Source: Aromatoleum anaerobium
Lineage (GTDB): Bacteria; Pseudomonadota; Gammaproteobacteria; Burkholderiales; Rhodocyclaceae
Direction: 5' to 3'
Assembly (NCBI RefSeq): GCF_012910705.2
Contig: NZ_WTVG02000040.1
Coordinates: forward strand, 434,001 to 498,000
Length of the DNA stretch: 64,000 nucleotides
Shown here in pieces: positions 38,223 through 44,387 of this stretch (positions within the stretch are counted from its first letter, which is position 1; every line of letters starts with the position of its first letter). The position numbers and the translations under genes are program-made. Below the pieces are notes generated by a model that saw only the letters and a list, made by a program, of their open reading frames with translations, was not told the DNA's origin and searched no databases.

Positions 38223-38585
38223 TCAGGGCCAGCCGCGGAACCACTGCGCGGCGAAAACGATCCCGACGACGACCGCCGTCGCGGTGGCGACAAGCACCGC
38301 ACCTGCCGCGATGTCCTTGCATGCGCCGATCTCCGGATGCCGTTCCGGGTGAAGGTGATCGGCCAGCGTCTCGAGTGCGGTATTGACGAGTTCGGTCACC
38401 ATGACGAAACCCGCCGTCAGCGCAAGCACCGTCCACCATACGAGCGGCGGCCGGGCCAGCAGCAGAATGATCAGCACGCCCCCGCCGGCGAGGACATGCA
38501 CGCGAAAGCTCCTTTCGCGACTGATCGCGAGCTGCAGGCCGTGCAGCGCGAAACCGAGGCGGTCGCGGAAACAACGGCCCTTCAC
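38223..38585 (-). CDS. dgkA: Integral membrane diacylglycerol kinase DgkA
   Basis: A 120-residue member of the small prokaryotic DgkA family, which uses ATP to recycle diacylglycerol to phosphatidic acid in the inner membrane. Signatures are RCFRDRLGFALHGLQ, ERSFRVH near the amphipathic helix and MVTELVNTALETLADH with the catalytic Glu. The start is GTG at 38585, which overlaps the PAP2 stop as GTGA; the longer frame to 39077 is PAP2 antiframe noise. It is the last gene of the minus-strand operon headed by metal-related genes. Why it is joined to that operon is not clear. Confidence 0.9.
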   Translation of the reverse strand: MKGRCFRDRLGFALHGLQLAISRERSFRVHVLAGGGVLIILLLARPPLVWWTVLALTAGFVMVTELVNTALETLADHLHPERHPEIGACKDIAAGAVLVATATAVVVGIVFAAQWFRGWP

Positions 38586-39262
38586 GCGCGCTCCCCGCTC
38601 CGGAGCTTCACGAGTTCCGCCGCGCCCCACCATCCCAGCGCCCCCGGCCCCCGCCGCCCACCCGGCAGAACGTCGGTCGGCCAGTGAACGCCCAGGTAGA
38701 TGCGGCTGAGGCCGACGATCACGGTCAGCGCCAGCGCGATCGACATCACGTAGAGCTTGAGTCGGCGCCGCGGCATCAGCCGCGCCAGCAAGGCTCCGAG
38801 TGTCAGATACACGATCGCCGAGAGCATTGCATGCCCGCTCGGAAAACTCGCCGAGATGACGAAGTCGCCGTGCGGAAAAATATCCGGCCGGGGTCGGGAG
38901 AAAGCGCCTTTCAGCAGCACCGAAACCAGGGTCCCGCTGCTCGTGCCGAGCAGCACGAACATCGCCGTGCGGTGCCGCCGGGCCAGAAGGAGAAAGACCG
39001 TCACGGCCGCGACCACCAGCCCCAGCACGGTGAAGCTGCCCAGCGCCGTGACGTCCCGCGCGACCGCCTCGATCCATGCCGGTCCGAGCGGAGAATCCGG
39101 CTCCCCGGGCGCCCGCAAGGCCACCAGGATCGCGTTGTCGAGCGCACGTGTATCCCCTTCGACGACGTCTTCAGCGACCTCGATGAAGATCCACAGCGTG
39201 GACGCCACGGCAGCGACTATGCCGAGAATCCGCGGCTCCAGCCAGTTCCGAAGAAAACGCAA
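38582..39262 (-). CDS. PAP2 superfamily phosphatase
   Basis: A 226-residue membrane phosphatase with the three PAP2 motifs: KGAFSRPRP, SASFPSGHAM and SRIYLGVHWPTD. Five or six helices are predicted, with active-site residues on the periplasmic face. Substrates in this family are phosphatidic acid, phosphatidylglycerol phosphate or undecaprenyl pyrophosphate. It lies 51 bases after the P-type ATPase and overlaps dgkA by four bases. The pair could cycle phosphatidic acid and diacylglycerol. Confidence 0.88.
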   Translation of the reverse strand: MRFLRNWLEPRILGIVAAVASTLWIFIEVAEDVVEGDTRALDNAILVALRAPGEPDSPLGPAWIEAVARDVTALGSFTVLGLVVAAVTVFLLLARRHRTAMFVLLGTSSGTLVSVLLKGAFSRPRPDIFPHGDFVISASFPSGHAMLSAIVYLTLGALLARLMPRRRLKLYVMSIALALTVIVGLSRIYLGVHWPTDVLPGGRRGPGALGWWGAAELVKLRSGERA

Positions 39263-39313
39263 AATGCTGCCTCCGAACGAACCACCGTCGGGCAGGGTGT
39301 CGTTCCTGCCGGT

Positions 39314-41398
39314 TCAGACGCTACTGCGGCGCAAGGCGTTGAGCAGGATCGCGATCGTGCTGCCGTTGTGCAGCATGGCAGTGGTGATCGGCGACAACAG
39401 TCCGGCCGCAGCGGCGGCGAGAATGCCCGTATTGAGCCCTACCGTCAGTCGATAGTTGGAACCGATGAGCGCCATCGTGCCGTTCGCCAGGGCCTTGGCG
39501 TCGGCCACGCAGGCGATGTCGTCCTCGAGCAGCGCCACGTCGGCCGTGAGGCGCGCAATATCCGCACCCTTCTGCATGGCAATGCCGACATGCGCCCCCG
39601 CGAGCGCCGGTGCGTCGTTGATGCCATCGCCGACGAAGGCGATACGCGCCCCTTGCTGCGAGAGTTCTTCGACGATCCGCGCCTTGTCCTGCGGCAGCAG
39701 CTCGGCATGGCAGCCATCGAGCCCGAGGTGTTCCGCAAGTTCTTCCGCCCGCTCGCGGTGGTCCCCGGTGAGCATCAGGATCCGCTTGGCGCCCAACTCG
39801 CGCAGCCGGAGAATGGTCGCCGCGCTGTTGGCGCGTACTTCGTCCTTCAGCGCCAGCACGCCGAGGAACCTGCCGCCGAAGCCGATGTAGAGCAGCGTCT
39901 TGCCTTCCTCGTAAAGCCGGTCGACGGTCTCGAGATGCGCCGAAATGTCGATCCCTTCGTCATCGGCGACGAAATGCCGCGAACCGATGACGATGCGCTG
40001 ACCCTCGATGACGCTGGCGACTCCGTGGGCGACGATGAACTGCACTTCCTGGTGCTCGAAATGCTGTCCGTGTATCGCGCGCGCCGCGGCGACGACCGCG
40101 TGCGCCAGCGGATGGACGTAGTGCTCCTCGACCGAAGCCGCGAGGCACAGCAGGTCTTCCGCAGTGTAGGTACTGTCGAAGGCGATCGAGTCGGTCACGG
40201 CGAGCGTGCCTGCAGTCAGCGTGCCCGTCTTGTCGAAGATGAAGGTGTCGGCATCGGCGAGACGTTCGAGGGCGCTGCCCCCCTTGACCAGGATTCCGGC
40301 ACGCCCCGCCCCGTACATCGCCGACTTGAAAGCGACCGGCGTCGCAAGCTTGAGCGCGCAGGAATAGTCGGCCTGCAGCACAGACGCGGCGCGCCGCCAG
40401 TCGCCCGAAAGGAAATAGGTGACACCGGCCAGCCCCAGCACGATCGGCACGAGGCGATCGGCGAGGCGCGCCGCGTCGAGCTGGGCCGCGCTTTTCGCCG
40501 TCAGCGACTGTTCGACGTAGTCGGCGATGCGCGCAGCGGCAGTGCGGCTGCCGACCTGTTCGGCGTACACTCTCAGGCGCCCCTCTTCGACCAGCGTTCC
40601 GGAAAGAACCGCGTCGCCCCGCCCTTTGGCTATCGCGGCACTCTCGCCGGTCATCGTCGCTTCATTGACGGTCGCTTCGCCCCCCAACACAGTGCCATCA
40701 ACGGGAACGACAGCGCCGTCGGCAACGATCACCGTATCGCCGACCACGACCTCGCCGGCCGCGACCAGCACTTCCTGCCCGCCGCGCTCGATCCATATCT
40801 GGTCGCTTGCCGGGCGCAAAAGGTGTTTGAGCAGATCGTCGGAACGGCGGGCGATGGAAATCTCGAGGTATTCCCCCAACGCCAGCATGAAAGTGGTCGT
40901 ATTGGCAGCGGTATAGTCACCGCGCGCCAGCGAGATCGACACCGCCATCGCCTCCAGCACATGCGACGAAATGCCGTTGGCGACGAGATCCTCCAGCGCG
41001 TGTCTGAGCAGCGGCGCGGCCGCCCCGAGCGCCACCGGAAACTGCAGCGGCTGCGGCAGATAACGCGTGAGGGCCAGTGTCGCCAGACTCGCCACCATGG
41101 GCGCCGGGCCGCCCTGCTCGACAACAGTCGAACCCCTCGCCGCCGGGACCGGGGGAGACAGGGCCGCAAGCGCGGTGCGCAAGCTCTCGAGCTCGACCTC
41201 TTTGTCGTCGAAGTGCAGCACCAGCGAACGGGCCGCGCGATTGACTCGTGCTTCGAGCACTCCGGTGATGTTCTCGGCCGCCCGCTCGATCGTCCTGGCA
41301 TCGGTCGGCGTGCCCGACCGGCAGCGGTAGCGAAAGCGCGCGCGCCCGCGCGTGCGGTGAGCCAGTTCCAGCGTGCCGAACCACGAACCCGAAGTCAT
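39314..41398 (-). CDS. P1B-type heavy-metal ATPase with atypical membrane motif
   Basis: A 694-residue metal-transporting P-type ATPase. It has a degenerate N-terminal HMA-like domain without CxxC (residues 10-80), a membrane part, the actuator motif TMTGESAAI, phosphorylated Asp389 in FDKTGTL, the P1B His-Pro pair (YVHPLAHAV) and GDGINDAPALAG. The helix motif normally written CPC or SPC reads YSC here (Tyr345-Ser346-Cys347, then ALKLATP), so the invariant Pro and first Cys are missing. Relatives of this kind transport Mn, Zn or Fe, but the metal cannot be named from the motif. The ATG overlaps the stop of a His-rich small membrane protein. It sits in a seven-gene coupled operon with ferritin-like and HMA-like proteins. 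Confidence 0.9.
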   Translation of the reverse strand: MTSGSWFGTLELAHRTRGRARFRYRCRSGTPTDARTIERAAENITGVLEARVNRAARSLVLHFDDKEVELESLRTALAALSPPVPAARGSTVVEQGGPAPMVASLATLALTRYLPQPLQFPVALGAAAPLLRHALEDLVANGISSHVLEAMAVSISLARGDYTAANTTTFMLALGEYLEISIARRSDDLLKHLLRPASDQIWIERGGQEVLVAAGEVVVGDTVIVADGAVVPVDGTVLGGEATVNEATMTGESAAIAKGRGDAVLSGTLVEEGRLRVYAEQVGSRTAAARIADYVEQSLTAKSAAQLDAARLADRLVPIVLGLAGVTYFLSGDWRRAASVLQADYSCALKLATPVAFKSAMYGAGRAGILVKGGSALERLADADTFIFDKTGTLTAGTLAVTDSIAFDSTYTAEDLLCLAASVEEHYVHPLAHAVVAAARAIHGQHFEHQEVQFIVAHGVASVIEGQRIVIGSRHFVADDEGIDISAHLETVDRLYEEGKTLLYIGFGGRFLGVLALKDEVRANSAATILRLRELGAKRILMLTGDHRERAEELAEHLGLDGCHAELLPQDKARIVEELSQQGARIAFVGDGINDAPALAGAHVGIAMQKGADIARLTADVALLEDDIACVADAKALANGTMALIGSNYRLTVGLNTGILAAAAAGLLSPITTAMLHNGSTIAILLNALRRSSV

Positions 41399-41778
41399 GC
41401 GTCGCCGCGACGCTCCGCTTCGGCTTCGGCCTTGAGGTCGGCCATCTGCTCCTTCATCTCCTCGAAGCCCCCGACCACATTCGAATAGAGCTTGATGCCG
41501 GTCTTCACCAGTTTGGCGCGCAGTTCCTCGTCACTCAGCACATACGCGGCCGCGGCCCCGATCACCGCGCCCAGCAGGAACTGTTCGTACTGGCCCGACT
41601 TGAGCCGCCCGGGAAGCCCGCGCAGGAAATCCTCGTCGACCAGTCCGGCGCCGAAACCGCCCGCGTGATGGCCCTGCGCGCCAAAACCGCTGGAATGAGG
41701 GTGTTCCCCCCAGGATCCACCGGCGTAAGCCGCCGCCTTGTCGCGGTGCTTCGCCTTCTTATGCTTTTTCTTGCCCAA
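41395..41778 (-). CDS. His-rich small membrane protein, metal-ATPase partner candidate
   Basis: A 127-residue protein. It has a basic His-rich N-terminus (GKKKHKKAKHRDK, GEHPHSSGF, GHHAGG), one hydrophobic stretch (LLGAVIGAAAAYVLS) and an amphipathic helix rich in Glu and Lys (KEQMADLKAEAEAE). This one-helix, YtxH-like build recalls the small PacL-type chaperones tied to metal ATPases in mycobacteria; no homology is claimed. The start is TTG at 41778 with AAGGAG upstream, overlapping the previous gene by 20 bases. It overlaps the P-type ATPase start by four bases. Binding metal near the ATPase entrance is a reasonable guess. Confidence 0.68.
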   Translation of the reverse strand: MGKKKHKKAKHRDKAAAYAGGSWGEHPHSSGFGAQGHHAGGFGAGLVDEDFLRGLPGRLKSGQYEQFLLGAVIGAAAAYVLSDEELRAKLVKTGIKLYSNVVGGFEEMKEQMADLKAEAEAERRGDA

Positions 41779-42100
41779 GAGCCTTCTCCTTGTTGTCTTT
41801 GCGCGCGGGTTTGCGCAACAGGTAATCGACGGCAACTACCGCGGCCGCGCCGCTGGTGACAGCCATCAGGGCCGTCCTGTAATCGCGACGCTGCAAGGCG
41901 CCCGCTGCCGTCCCGCCTGCCGCAAGGGCGATTCCGCCTTGCAGTGCCTGACGCAGGATCGCCTTGCCGGCATTCGGCGCGGTGGTGCTTGCCGCCCCGC
42001 TCGGCAGCGCTGCGAGGAGGCCGGTGGCGACGAATCCGCGCACAAAATTCGCCGACGCGGGATCGGCCGCGGGCGCCGGATAGGGGCGGCGCCGCTTCAC
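41759..42100 (-). CDS. Small membrane protein of the metal operon (unknown family)
   Basis: A 113-residue protein with about three hydrophobic segments (FVRGFVATGLLAAL, GGIALAAGGTAAGAL, MAVTSGAAAVVAVDYLL) and a charged basic C-terminus. It starts with GTG at 42100 in a GTGA overlap with the upstream gene. No domain is recognised. It lies in the middle of the coupled metal operon, so it probably belongs to the same membrane complex. Confidence 0.65.
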   Translation of the reverse strand: MKRRRPYPAPAADPASANFVRGFVATGLLAALPSGAASTTAPNAGKAILRQALQGGIALAAGGTAAGALQRRDYRTALMAVTSGAAAVVAVDYLLRKPARKDNKEKALGQEKA

Positions 42101-42477
42101 GGCTGGTCCTCGTCGGGTTTCTCGACTTGCGTGCGCGCCTCAGCGGGTTCGGTCGGACGGGACGCGGGCTTGCGCCTGCGGCGCGGAGCAGCTTTCGATT
42201 CCGGCGTCACTTTCGACTCCGGCTGCACCTTCGACTCCGCCTCCGTTGGCGCGGCTTGCGCTTGCGCTGCCGGTTCGAGCGGCAGTTCGGAGTCTGCCGC
42301 GAGCTTGGCGCGCAAGTGAGCCGACGAATGTTCGATCGCGCTAAGACTCGATACGGTCGCCTCCCGCAGGCGCTCCTGGGCTTTGTCGAGCGTGGCGCGG
42401 GTCTTGCCCGCCTTGAGCAGCCGGATGCCCAAGGCACCGGTCACCAGACCGACGGCGAATGGAAGCAAGGGGTACAT
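42097..42477 (-). CDS. Membrane-anchored protein with ESK(V/A) repeats
   Basis: A 126-residue protein with one N-terminal helix (PLLPFAVGLVTGALGIRLL), a helical segment (LDKAQERLREATVSSL) and a disordered acidic/basic tail. The tail holds three ESK repeats (ESKVQP, ESKVTP, ESKAAP), then RRRRKPA. The start at 42477 has GGAGGG at a good distance; the frame runs further up to 42552 without support. It begins 1 base after the ferritin-like stop. No family is recognised. The build is like a tethered scaffold. Confidence 0.65.
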   Translation of the reverse strand: MYPLLPFAVGLVTGALGIRLLKAGKTRATLDKAQERLREATVSSLSAIEHSSAHLRAKLAADSELPLEPAAQAQAAPTEAESKVQPESKVTPESKAAPRRRRKPASRPTEPAEARTQVEKPDEDQP

Positions 42478-42478
42478 G

Positions 42479-43180
42479 TCATCCCTCCTTTTCTTGTTGG
42501 TTGAGTTTGCGCTTGCCCTTGACGAACAGCACGCCTGCCCCGCCGGCCACAAGCCCGGCGATCATCGCCGGGCGAGCGTTGCGCAGGAGCGGGCCGACGA
42601 CGCCGATGGCGCGGTGCTGGCTCCCGAGCACGGCGAAGGTTTTCTCGAGAAAATCGGCGAACAGACCATGCTGGATGTACGCCTGTTCGGGCGCCACGCC
42701 CTGCTGCGCATGAAGCGCTTCCTGCCGGAGCGCGTCGGCCACGGCGCGTTGCAGCATCGGCAGATGACGTTCGAGCGCGCTCGCCTGCAAACGCTGGAAC
42801 GTCCGGCGGACTTCCGGCTCGGCGATTCCCTTCAGGAGGGATTCGTAAAGGCGCGCCCGCTCGATCTCGCCGACGACCGCCCGCTCGCAGTTGGCGCGCC
42901 AGTCGGGCGCCAAGGCGGTTTCGAGAGGAAATGGATCAAGCGGGAGCGGCACGCCAAAGCGCCGTGCGAGCGCGGAGAGGGTCGCCGCGTGCTTTTCTTC
43001 CGATTTGGCGAGATCGGCGAACGGAGCACGCGGCCCGAACGCCTCGACCATCTTGGTGTAAAAGGCCCGCGCCGCATATCCGTCGTAGAGCGCAATGCGC
43101 AGCCCCTGATGCAGTGGCGCAAACGGCGCGGCGCGGTCGATTCGCCGGCTGCGCAGGATCGCTTCGTCGTAGTTACGCAC
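42479..43180 (-). CDS. Ferritin-like domain protein with C-terminal membrane anchor
   Basis: A 233-residue four-helix ferritin-like protein plus a C-terminal membrane helix (PAMIAGLVAGGAGVLFV) and a basic end (KGKRKLNQQEKEG). Metal-ligand positions are E-x-x-H in SEEKHAATL, Glu in VGEIERARLYESL and E-x-H in ALERHLPML. The helix A carboxylate normally seen in this family (as in DEYKA) is missing: the sequence reads LYDGYAARAFY. It overlaps the HMA-like gene by 8 bases. It may bind or oxidise iron or manganese at the membrane, feeding or sensing the metal moved by the ATPase. Confidence 0.75.
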   Translation of the reverse strand: MRNYDEAILRSRRIDRAAPFAPLHQGLRIALYDGYAARAFYTKMVEAFGPRAPFADLAKSEEKHAATLSALARRFGVPLPLDPFPLETALAPDWRANCERAVVGEIERARLYESLLKGIAEPEVRRTFQRLQASALERHLPMLQRAVADALRQEALHAQQGVAPEQAYIQHGLFADFLEKTFAVLGSQHRAIGVVGPLLRNARPAMIAGLVAGGAGVLFVKGKRKLNQQEKEG

Positions 43181-43508
43181 CAGGCAGCTCCCGATGCTTG
43201 GTCACCAGGATGTCCAGCAGCGTTTCCGCTGCGGTCGAGCGCACACCACTCAACAGGTCCGGCCAGGCGGCGGCGGGGATGGTGGTCGTGTCGTATTCGA
43301 TGGTGCAGGAGCGGGCCAGAATATTCAGCTTGATCGAATGCACGCCGGGAATGCCGTCGAGCGCACGGCCGAAGCGTCTGGCGTCACCGATTGCCCCGAG
43401 CCGGTCCGAGTCCAGATCGCCCTCGAGCTTGAGGCGTATGCGCCCCGGGATGTGGTGGGCGATACGCAGGTAGCCGGTGAAGCGTTGCAGTTGATCGAAT
43501 GCGTCCAT
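43173..43508 (-). CDS. HMA2-type domain protein
   Basis: A 111-residue soluble protein with an HMA-like fold but no CxxC: HIPGRIRLKLEGDLDSD, then LDGIPGVHSIKLNILARSCTIEYD. Proteins of this sort accompany metal ATPases whose own N-terminal HMA lacks cysteines. The start is set at ATG 43508 with GGAA upstream; GTG 43523 is possible. It overlaps the ferritin-like gene by 8 bases. It probably docks to or regulates the ATPase by protein contacts rather than by thiol metal transfer. Confidence 0.72.
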   Translation of the reverse strand: MDAFDQLQRFTGYLRIAHHIPGRIRLKLEGDLDSDRLGAIGDARRFGRALDGIPGVHSIKLNILARSCTIEYDTTTIPAAAWPDLLSGVRSTAAETLLDILVTKHRELPGA

Positions 43509-43534
43509 GGTGGATTCCGACACGGTATCTCAAG

Positions 43535-44017
43535 CTATTTCAGTAAGTGACGCCGGTGCACGGCCATATGAATCGCGAGCAAGGCCGTGAACAAACCTCC
43601 GGTGGCCGCGTGCAGGTGCTTCTTCCCGACCGCCGCCAGTGCGAGCGACGCCCCGAGACTGCCGAGCATGCCGATCTTGGAGTAGGTATTGAGGCGCCGC
43701 GCCATCGCGCGTCTCGAACCAAGCGTCCAGCGCTCGCGGGCAGCCGGCTGCACTGCCTTCGGCGCGCCCCGCCCAGCCTCCGCGGCGCCCAGCACCTTCT
43801 CGGCCGCAGCCACCACCCGCGCTTCCATCGTCGCCCTGTCGATCCGGGCGGCATCGTAGCGCATCAACAGGCTGCCGGCATTGATGCTGCCTTCGACGGC
43901 CAGCGTCCCGTCGAGATCCTCCAGCAGGGCTTGCAGGCGAGCATGCCGATCAGGCTCGCGCAATGCCCGGTTGCGTAGCCGCAGCCGGCCCGGTATCGAG
44001 GAAACGATCCAATTCAT
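43535..44017 (-). CDS. HMA-like protein with C-terminal membrane helices (first gene of metal operon)
   Basis: A 160-residue protein. Residues 1-75 form another HMA-like domain without cysteines (VSSIPGRLRLRNRAL, GSINAGSLLMRYD). A basic linker follows (KAVQPAARERW), then two hydrophobic helices (IGMLGSLGASLALAAVG and GGLFTALLAIHMAVH). The start at 44017 (MNWIVSS) is preferred; an ATG at 44047 is in frame. It is the first gene of the metal operon, with 276 bases of leader up to tRNA-Ser. The layout suggests a membrane-bound counterpart of the soluble HMA2 protein downstream. Confidence 0.7.
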   Translation of the reverse strand: MNWIVSSIPGRLRLRNRALREPDRHARLQALLEDLDGTLAVEGSINAGSLLMRYDAARIDRATMEARVVAAAEKVLGAAEAGRGAPKAVQPAARERWTLGSRRAMARRLNTYSKIGMLGSLGASLALAAVGKKHLHAATGGLFTALLAIHMAVHRRHLLK

Positions 44018-44233
44018 GCAATCCAACCGTATCGATATTTTGAACATTGTGATCGACTTTACCGCTTGAATACTCGGCGCGAAAGCGATTCCGGCGTGAA
44101 GGGCAAAGCCGGCCTGCCCGGGAGACCCGCCGGCAATCATCCGGCGGTTGCCGCTTCAGCCGCCGCCCGCCACCGACGGGAGTCCCTCGCGGAGGCCTGC
44201 CCCTGGAGAGGTGGCAAGAAGGGATGTTATAAG
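44018..44233. promoter_or_regulatory. Leader/promoter region of the metal operon (no confident site)
   Basis: This gap separates the tRNA-Ser terminator from the first metal-operon gene and must hold its promoter. The part nearest the gene is AT-rich (near 44030-44090). A perfect 7-base inverted repeat, CCGCCGG and CCGGCGG with a 7-base loop, lies at 44127-44147. No known riboswitch or repressor box was recognised. Confidence 0.35.
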
Positions 44234-44293: not shown

Positions 44294-44387
44294 TGGCGGA
44301 GAGTGAGGGATTCGAACCCTCGATGCGAGTTTTAGCCCGCATGCTCCCTTAGCAGGGGAGTGCCTTCGACCTCTCGGCCAACTCTCC
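44294..44387 (-). tRNA. tRNA-Ser (anticodon GCT)
   Basis: A 94-nucleotide tRNA on the minus strand with the long variable arm of serine tRNAs (GCATGCGGGCTAAAACTCGC region). The acceptor GGAGAG pairs with CTCTCC, followed by G-CCA, which is encoded. The anticodon loop CTGCTAA sits in stem CTCCC/GGGAG, giving anticodon GCT for AGC/AGU. A strong promoter lies upstream. Confidence 0.97.

Follow-up and report, generated by a model that had tools for sequence, protein, structure and literature searches.

A probable ferrosome-type operon of Aromatoleum anaerobium with an optional ferritin-like seventh gene and an eroding diiron site

What is the function of a tightly packed set of genes in Aromatoleum anaerobium that encodes a P1B-type ATPase together with HMA-like, ferritin-like and other small proteins, and has such a set been seen before? 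The set lies in a stretch of 64,000 nucleotides (contig NZ_WTVG02000040.1, positions 434,001 to 498,000 of the forward strand), referred to here as the window. A reading of the window made from the sequence alone had proposed a dedicated, poorly described metal-handling membrane complex encoded by seven joined genes, and this gene structure was borne out: the genes run from position 44047 (or 44017) to 39314, all overlapping or at most 11 nt apart. We named them g1 to g7, starting at the upstream end (Table 1). In our opinion the operon is probably a ferrosome-type (FezB-like) iron-sequestration operon, in the sense that it would work like a ferrosome operon; strict membership is not claimed. 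The operon core is of a known kind, and the new element is an optional ferritin-like seventh gene, g3, with an eroding diiron site; a literature search that left most subscription journals uncovered found no paper on this seventh gene. The system is less undescribed than the sequence-only reading had supposed, as its ATPase is of the P1B6 type, reportedly the type of FezB. FezB-like pumps are also said to be widespread, and Shewanella putrefaciens is said to have a six-gene fez operon.

The classification of the ATPase g7 is based on its motifs. DKTGT, TGES and GDGINDAP are all present, and g7 matched PF00122, PF00702, TIGR01525 (general heavy-metal P-type ATPase) and TIGR01512 (cadmium-family) above cut-off; it was the only protein that the NCBIfam scan named above cut-off, with general heavy-metal, cadmium-family and general P-type models. 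Transmembrane segment 4 (TM4) reads DYSCALKLATP, with SCA instead of CPC, and segment 6 (TM6) reads LHNGSTI, which contains the pair HN. In the aligned ATPase relatives TM4 has the form [S/A]C[A/G/P], in agreement with the [S/A]C that is typical of P1B6 ATPases. The HN of TM6 is kept in every aligned relative whose sequence extends that far (those of loci L043 and L074 end short), and both motifs are missing from L051 and L053, two clearly unrelated P-type ATPases in the alignment. HN in TM6 is described as a P1B6 feature in PMC9374683, which, like the other papers cited below, is quoted from excerpts. Judged by these two motifs, g7 is a P1B6-type ATPase, and a CPC-type Cu or Zn pump is ruled out by the SCA of TM4. 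The ratio of nonsynonymous to synonymous substitution rates (dN/dS) of g7 was 0.06-0.17 against the related loci L031, L032 and L033.

The synteny of the operon was analyzed in samples of 199 genomes of the family, 300 of the order and 185 of the class, with the window genome included in each count. An ATPase query (E up to 1e-120) matched 25 of the 199 family genomes; after removal of one distant ATPase (41% identical) and one locus truncated by a contig end, 23 readable operons remained. The order g2-g3-g4-g5-g6-g7 is kept in the loci that have the full operon, and because relatives whose ATPase is as little as 61% identical still show it, the arrangement is not a matter of chance. In a phylum-wide sample, the ATPase was found at E up to 1e-105 in eight of 398 genomes, window included. 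A version of the operon with g3 is carried by an Arcobacter plasmid, and two Azospirillum plasmids carry g1-g2-g4-g5-g6-g7 without g3, one of them adjoining an iron ATP-binding cassette transporter. The gene order is therefore conserved, and in several phyla, which supports well the earlier proposal of a dedicated metal-handling membrane system.

A wider set consisted of the best 80 of 425 relatives, ranked by their match to a TM4 fragment of a gammaproteobacterial ATPase; it is biased toward gammaproteobacteria and contains the ATPase by construction. It includes Ferrimonas, Vibrio, Photobacterium, Shewanella, several enterics, Competibacter, Thauera, Dechloromonas, Magnetococcales and Sulfurimonas. 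An ATPase open reading frame (ORF) longer than 900 nt was found in 79 of these loci (a count that includes L126, where the gene is in pieces), a g6 homologue in 78, a g5 homologue, at a lenient cut-off, in 69, at least one HMA_2 protein in 77 and at least two in 72. Either g4 or a His/Pro-rich protein, named here x, was present in 67, and the full related gene set in 59 of the 80. At the Symbiopectobacterium loci L137 and L126 the matches to the ATPase are distributed over a number of separate ORFs, as if the system were being lost. A small gene upstream of the related operon was also observed in Shewanella, Vibrio, Ferrimonas and Pragia (L096:2831-3304, L114:3229-3705, L082:3350-3799, L090:3435-3800 and L135:3214-3660); its copies are 40-56% identical to that of L096, for which no Pfam family was found.

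The gene g3 shows a different distribution from its neighbours. A g3 query matched 13 of 199 family, nine of 300 order and five of 185 class genomes, part of the matches being stand-alone genes. Among the 23 readable family operons g3 is present in 12 (window included) and absent from 11, and in operons without it g4 directly follows g2. It is thus an optional seventh gene of the operon, and its absence from those 11 rules it out as a defining part of the system.

The protein g3 had been described from the sequence alone as a membrane-tethered ferritin-like protein, and modelling agrees with the second half of this description. In the AlphaFold model the mean predicted local distance difference test score (pLDDT) per ten-residue block was at least 91 for residues 11-150, and a Foldseek search of the PDB gave bacterioferritins, a thioferritin and further proteins of ferritin-like type among its top matches (best E-value 0.0034; TM, normalised by target, up to 0.79); the modelled fold is a four-helix ferritin-like one. 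Pfam matches were weak, all of them below cut-off. The tether corresponds to one near-threshold hydrophobic stretch, and it is hydropathy that suggests a membrane anchor here, because the model is not confident in the C-terminal part (pLDDT below 50 for nearly all of residues 172-233).

The g3 relatives found outside the operon share a Glu in helix 1, ExxH in helix 2, a Glu in helix 3 and a His in helix 4, which from this conservation, and by analogy, are predicted to be diiron ligands. All five positions are kept in 11 of 11 such copies, eight from loci without the operon and three (L142, L143 and L144) from near it. By comparison, the predicted ligands are complete in eight of 21 operon-embedded copies, and at least one is missing in the other 13, which include the window. 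In the window Gly34 occupies the helix-1 Glu position, so the predicted set is incomplete; the same position is Gly in L031, which also lacks the helix-2 His, and Ala in L032. Two irregular arrangements were observed as well. In L143 and L144, cave metagenome-assembled genomes titled Thiomargarita and Dichelobacter, the ferritin-like gene lies outside the g2-g4 interval and a long extra stretch separates the YtxH-like gene from the ATPase (L143:4586-6044, L144:954-6017). In L041:10250-11047, g3 is split into two frames by a frameshift or a sequencing error, the other operon genes being open; this copy is counted among the 13 incomplete ones.

On a tree of the ATPase, at least five changes between intact and eroded g3 states are needed, and the clustering of the intact state was equalled in 41 of 500 shuffles; the tree was built quickly and has long branches, and change counts cannot separate gain from loss. 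Repeated loss of the g3 diiron site is likely overall, though not event by event. The window g3 is nevertheless under purifying selection: its dN/dS against L031, L032 and L033 is 0.15-0.36, a range like that of the small neighbouring genes and indicating weaker constraint than on the ATPase. Because a ligand is lost and yet purifying selection persists, the fold may have a structural or docking role in place of ferroxidase activity. We tentatively suggest, as a possibility that we hold with less than even confidence, that a membrane-tethered ferritin fold was taken up into a ferrosome-type organelle as a subunit for coating or docking, that the fold, no longer bound to ferroxidase chemistry, then lost its diiron site repeatedly while purifying selection kept the gene in the operon, and that this subunit may dock cages of soluble ferritin or bacterioferritin to the iron pump.

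The remaining partners of the pump are HMA_2-like and small proteins. Both g1 (33.6 bits) and g2 (31.1 bits) matched PF19991 above cut-off. The former contains SIPGRLRLR without CxxC, is weakly hydrophobic at residues 145-163 (hydropathy 1.53), and in most relatives has a homologue that adjoins the operon or lies close to it, on one strand or the other. In g2 the hydropathy scan found no hydrophobic stretch; its HHxxGRxR shows little or no variation among 22 sequences, of which the window's is one, with H23, G27, R28, R30 and Y77 invariant, and its structure model matches HMA domains weakly (best Foldseek E 0.053). In the whole genome only three HMA_2 matches were obtained at E<=0.001, namely g1, g2 and the N-terminus of g7. 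HMA_2 proteins of the operon type have the GRxR signature and lack CxxC. The two cysteine-less HMA domains of the sequence-only reading are accordingly three; they are without CxxC as stated, and not literally free of cysteine.

The hydropathy scan, a crude method, detected one stretch each in g1, g3, g4 and g5, every one near the threshold, and none above it in g6. The label of small membrane proteins thus finds weak support in g4 and g5; for g6 a membrane location may be suggested by its similarity to YtxH, seen in matches below cut-off to PF12732 (E=1.3e-5) and PF17195 (E=4.5e-4). The earlier description of g6 as His-rich is corrected to six His in 127 residues. Profile comparison indicated that g4 and g6 are probably related (hhalign probability 89%), and g4 was found in 16 of 16 same-order operons and in both Azospirillum operons read. 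The family of g5 has no convincing name (best Pfam E 0.088, no NCBIfam match), and the profile of the window g5 matches that of gammaproteobacterial g5 with 92% probability over 86 columns. The x protein of the gammaproteobacterial operons is related to g6 (98% probability by profile); to g4 it corresponds by position only (profile probability 48% over 27 columns).

The neighbouring genes in relatives point to iron, and not to the open choice of Mn, Fe, Zn and Co left by the sequence-only reading. In a Pfam scan of 117 flanking ORFs from 30 loci, at least five FeoA, six FeoB_N, three FTR1, four TonB plug, one FecCD and four Fer4_5 matches were found; the ORFs, 125 in all, were picked by length and composition, so that some may not be genes, and the eight unscanned ones belong to the two Azospirillum plasmids, which are annotated records. 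In a second search, run on loci of unequal length, five individual sequences served as queries (E up to 1e-6), and its weak FeoB matches could be other GTPases. It placed an iron-uptake gene near 11 of 33 window-type loci (two of them, L155 and L188, being one contig), two of five plasmid loci, 10 of 82 other loci and, as a control, none of eight loci with stand-alone g3 relatives. The operon of a Cereibacter plasmid is flanked by FeoA and TonB receptors. At L185, L189 and L193 an FTR1-type permease lies upstream of the operon, accompanied by a membrane protein that by eye is polyferredoxin-like, and at L193 FeoB and FeoA are upstream too; an uptake-to-storage supercluster is possible for these three loci.

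Ferrosomes of Rhodopseudomonas palustris are made from six fez genes (PMC12016538), and in low light rpa2333-2338 and iron genes are downregulated jointly (PMC6879726). FezB has been described as a putative Fe(II) transporter and FezC as a cytochrome (PMC10979944), and ferrosomes of Clostridioides difficile need FezA and FezB, both repressed by Fur (PMC12574912). Gene content, synteny, ATPase type, the modelled g3 fold, the ligand losses and, in part of the relatives, the iron neighbourhood are the observations that suggest a similar system here; to these a model would add Fe(II) as the substrate, the direction of transport, the formation of an organelle, the anchoring of g3 and g6, and the scaffold and g3 roles. 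According to this model, the P1B6 ATPase g7 would take Fe(II) out of the cytosol and through a membrane to fill a store, which would be the lumen of a vesicle becoming a ferrosome, or the periplasmic precursor of that lumen. The HMA_2 proteins, which lack CxxC, would assist the pump as its partners or adaptors, in contrast to chaperones for soft metals (Cu, Zn), and the YtxH-like g4 and g6 with the small g5 would form a scaffold that holds the pump in a dense patch of membrane or in a coat of the organelle. Held at the same membrane by its C-terminal helix, g3 would be accessory: with an intact diiron site it may oxidise or hand over iron, whereas in the window, where the helix-1 Glu is Gly, it is more likely a structural or docking subunit.

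Several observations speak against a ferrosome-type assignment. The likeness to fez operons lies in ATPase type, gene number and iron-gene neighbourhood, and neither R. palustris nor S. putrefaciens is among the best 80 of the 425 named relatives. No DUF4405 protein (FezC) is encoded in the operon, and a match below threshold was found only on another contig; this domain of FezC is a feature of Desulfovibrio-type fez clusters and is not known to be universal. The score of g7 against TIGR01512 (366.6 bits, cut-off 313.5) associates it with a family whose name points to another metal. No iron-uptake match was found in 22 of the 33 window-type loci, including the same-genus L031-L033, the flanks of the window being outside the scan, and the control set for this comparison is small (eight loci). 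Iron storage is otherwise provided for in the genome by other ferritin-family genes (six matches elsewhere, two of them partial). The window contains no match to a Fur-box consensus at up to three mismatches, and no FNR-box-like site was found in it.

The main rival is a plasma-membrane efflux platform, in which the ATPase would export Fe(II), Zn/Cd or another divalent metal and the small proteins would cluster the pump, with no organelle. PacL1 and CtpC form such platforms in mycobacteria (PMC9374683; a PacL-like platform also in PMC13043812), and CtpC likewise has the TM6 HN motif (PMC9374683). PacL is a small protein with one transmembrane segment and a Glu/Ala-rich tail, which resembles the single hydrophobic stretch and charged tail of g4 and the Glu/Ala-rich tail of g6, and the above-cut-off cadmium-family match of g7 would fit as well. 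However, no match of DUF1490 or DUF6110 to any of g1-g7 was obtained at E up to 1, which rules out the PacL families as an explanation of g4-g6; TM4 of g7 is SCA and not CPC as in CtpC; and the recurrent Feo, FTR1, TonB and FecCD neighbours fit storage better. We therefore regard efflux as unlikely, while still the strongest competitor of the ferrosome-type reading. The ferritin-like fold, and the copies with all ligands, would suit a system centred on g3 as a membrane-bound ferroxidase or iron store, but the family and Azospirillum operons that do without g3, and the incomplete ligands of most embedded copies, window included, make this quite improbable. A function of another kind, for example in lipid or envelope homeostasis, is suggested by the PAP2 and dgkA-like genes behind g7, and by a PAP2-like ORF close after the related L073 operon and also in L094, L097 and L098 of the set of 80 (far from the operon in two), and we give it hardly any credence, as the searches of the remaining window-type relatives, among them the same-genus L033, gave no PAP2 or dgkA match next to the operon.

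Table 1. Features of the operon and its immediate flanks in the window. All lie on the reverse strand.
Feature	Position (strand)	Start	Description
g1	43535..44047 (-)	alternative start 44017	HMA_2-like domain and C-terminal weakly hydrophobic stretch
g2	43173..43523 (-)	GTG	HMA_2-like, signature HHxxGRxR
g3	42479..43180 (-)	GTG	predicted ferritin-like four-helix domain and C-terminal hydrophobic stretch
g4	42097..42477 (-)		small protein; one N-terminal hydrophobic stretch, then charged tail; distantly YtxH-like
g5	41759..42100 (-)	GTG	small protein, one hydrophobic stretch
g6	41395..41778 (-)	TTG	YtxH/DUF5132-like; His-containing N-terminus, Glu/Ala-rich tail
g7	39314..41398 (-)		P1B6-type P-type ATPase (by motifs), HMA_2-like domain at N-terminus
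PAP2-family phosphatase	38582..39262 (-)		PF01569 above cut-off
dgkA-like small membrane protein	38223..38585 (-)		label by eye; three hydrophobic stretches
tRNA-Ser(gct)	44294..44387 (-)		ARAGORN; just upstream of operon

Within the operon, g1 and g2 are separated by 11 nt and g3 and g4 by 1 nt, and overlaps of 8, 4, 20 and 4 nt join g2/g3, g4/g5, g5/g6 and g6/g7, respectively. A scan of the sequence for promoters and terminators gave no more matches than chance. The PAP2 gene begins 51 nt after g7 and overlaps the dgkA-like ORF by 4 nt; the latter had no match in NCBIfam, the only collection scanned for it. That PAP2 and dgkA follow the operon is correct for the window and for its two closest relatives, L031 and L032, alone among the window-type relatives examined, and their lack beside the operon in the others of these relatives rules them out as part of the system. 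PAP2 is possibly co-transcribed with the operon in the window's genus.

On the upstream side, beyond tRNA-Ser(gct), lies an aspartate-kinase-like gene (label by eye). This tRNA gene forms a boundary: next to it, some same-genus genomes carry the region with the operon and others lack it. The operon directly adjoins it in the window and in L213, and in L212 about 9 kb (L212:2900-12170) separates the two; by eye, this insert contains two transposase-type elements (istA/istB-like genes and another transposase-like gene) and two cytochrome-like genes. In three other same-genus genomes no match longer than 120 nt to window positions 24001-44285 was found beside tRNA-Ser in the roughly 5 to 15 kb fetched. 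In the family sample the ATPase is absent from two of six same-genus genomes, the operon being patchy within the genus, and gains and losses appear to concentrate at the tRNA-Ser flank.

If the ferrosome-type reading is true, Thauera, Dechloromonas, Azospirillum, enterics and many Vibrio, Photobacterium, Ferrimonas and Shewanella would be places to seek this kind of storage, which the papers cited here report from a few species only. A ferritin fold retained through repeated loss of the diiron site would then clearly exemplify the conversion of a storage protein into a structural component, and if docking is also true, two iron stores thought to be separate, ferritin cages and a pump-filled store, would be joined.

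Among known systems, the fez operons of Desulfovibrio magneticus, R. palustris and C. difficile also combine small proteins with an ATPase that is reportedly of the P1B6 type. The window-type core without g3 has six genes, the number of RPA2333-2338 in R. palustris, and Azospirillum carries exactly this core; iron genes beside the operon are a further likeness, in part of the relatives, and the extra ferritin-like g3 and the lack of a DUF4405 FezC are differences. The PacL/Ctp effluxosomes likewise encode a small protein with a Glu/Ala-rich tail together with a P1B ATPase that has HN in TM6, whereas the window operon lacks DUF1490 and DUF6110, has SCA for CPC in TM4, and adds HMA_2 and ferritin-like partners. 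Finally, g3 appears to share its four-helix fold with the DUF2202 and rubrerythrin-like proteins of the ferritin superfamily, from which the window-type g3 differs in its additional C-terminal hydrophobic stretch and in the frequent loss of its predicted ligands.

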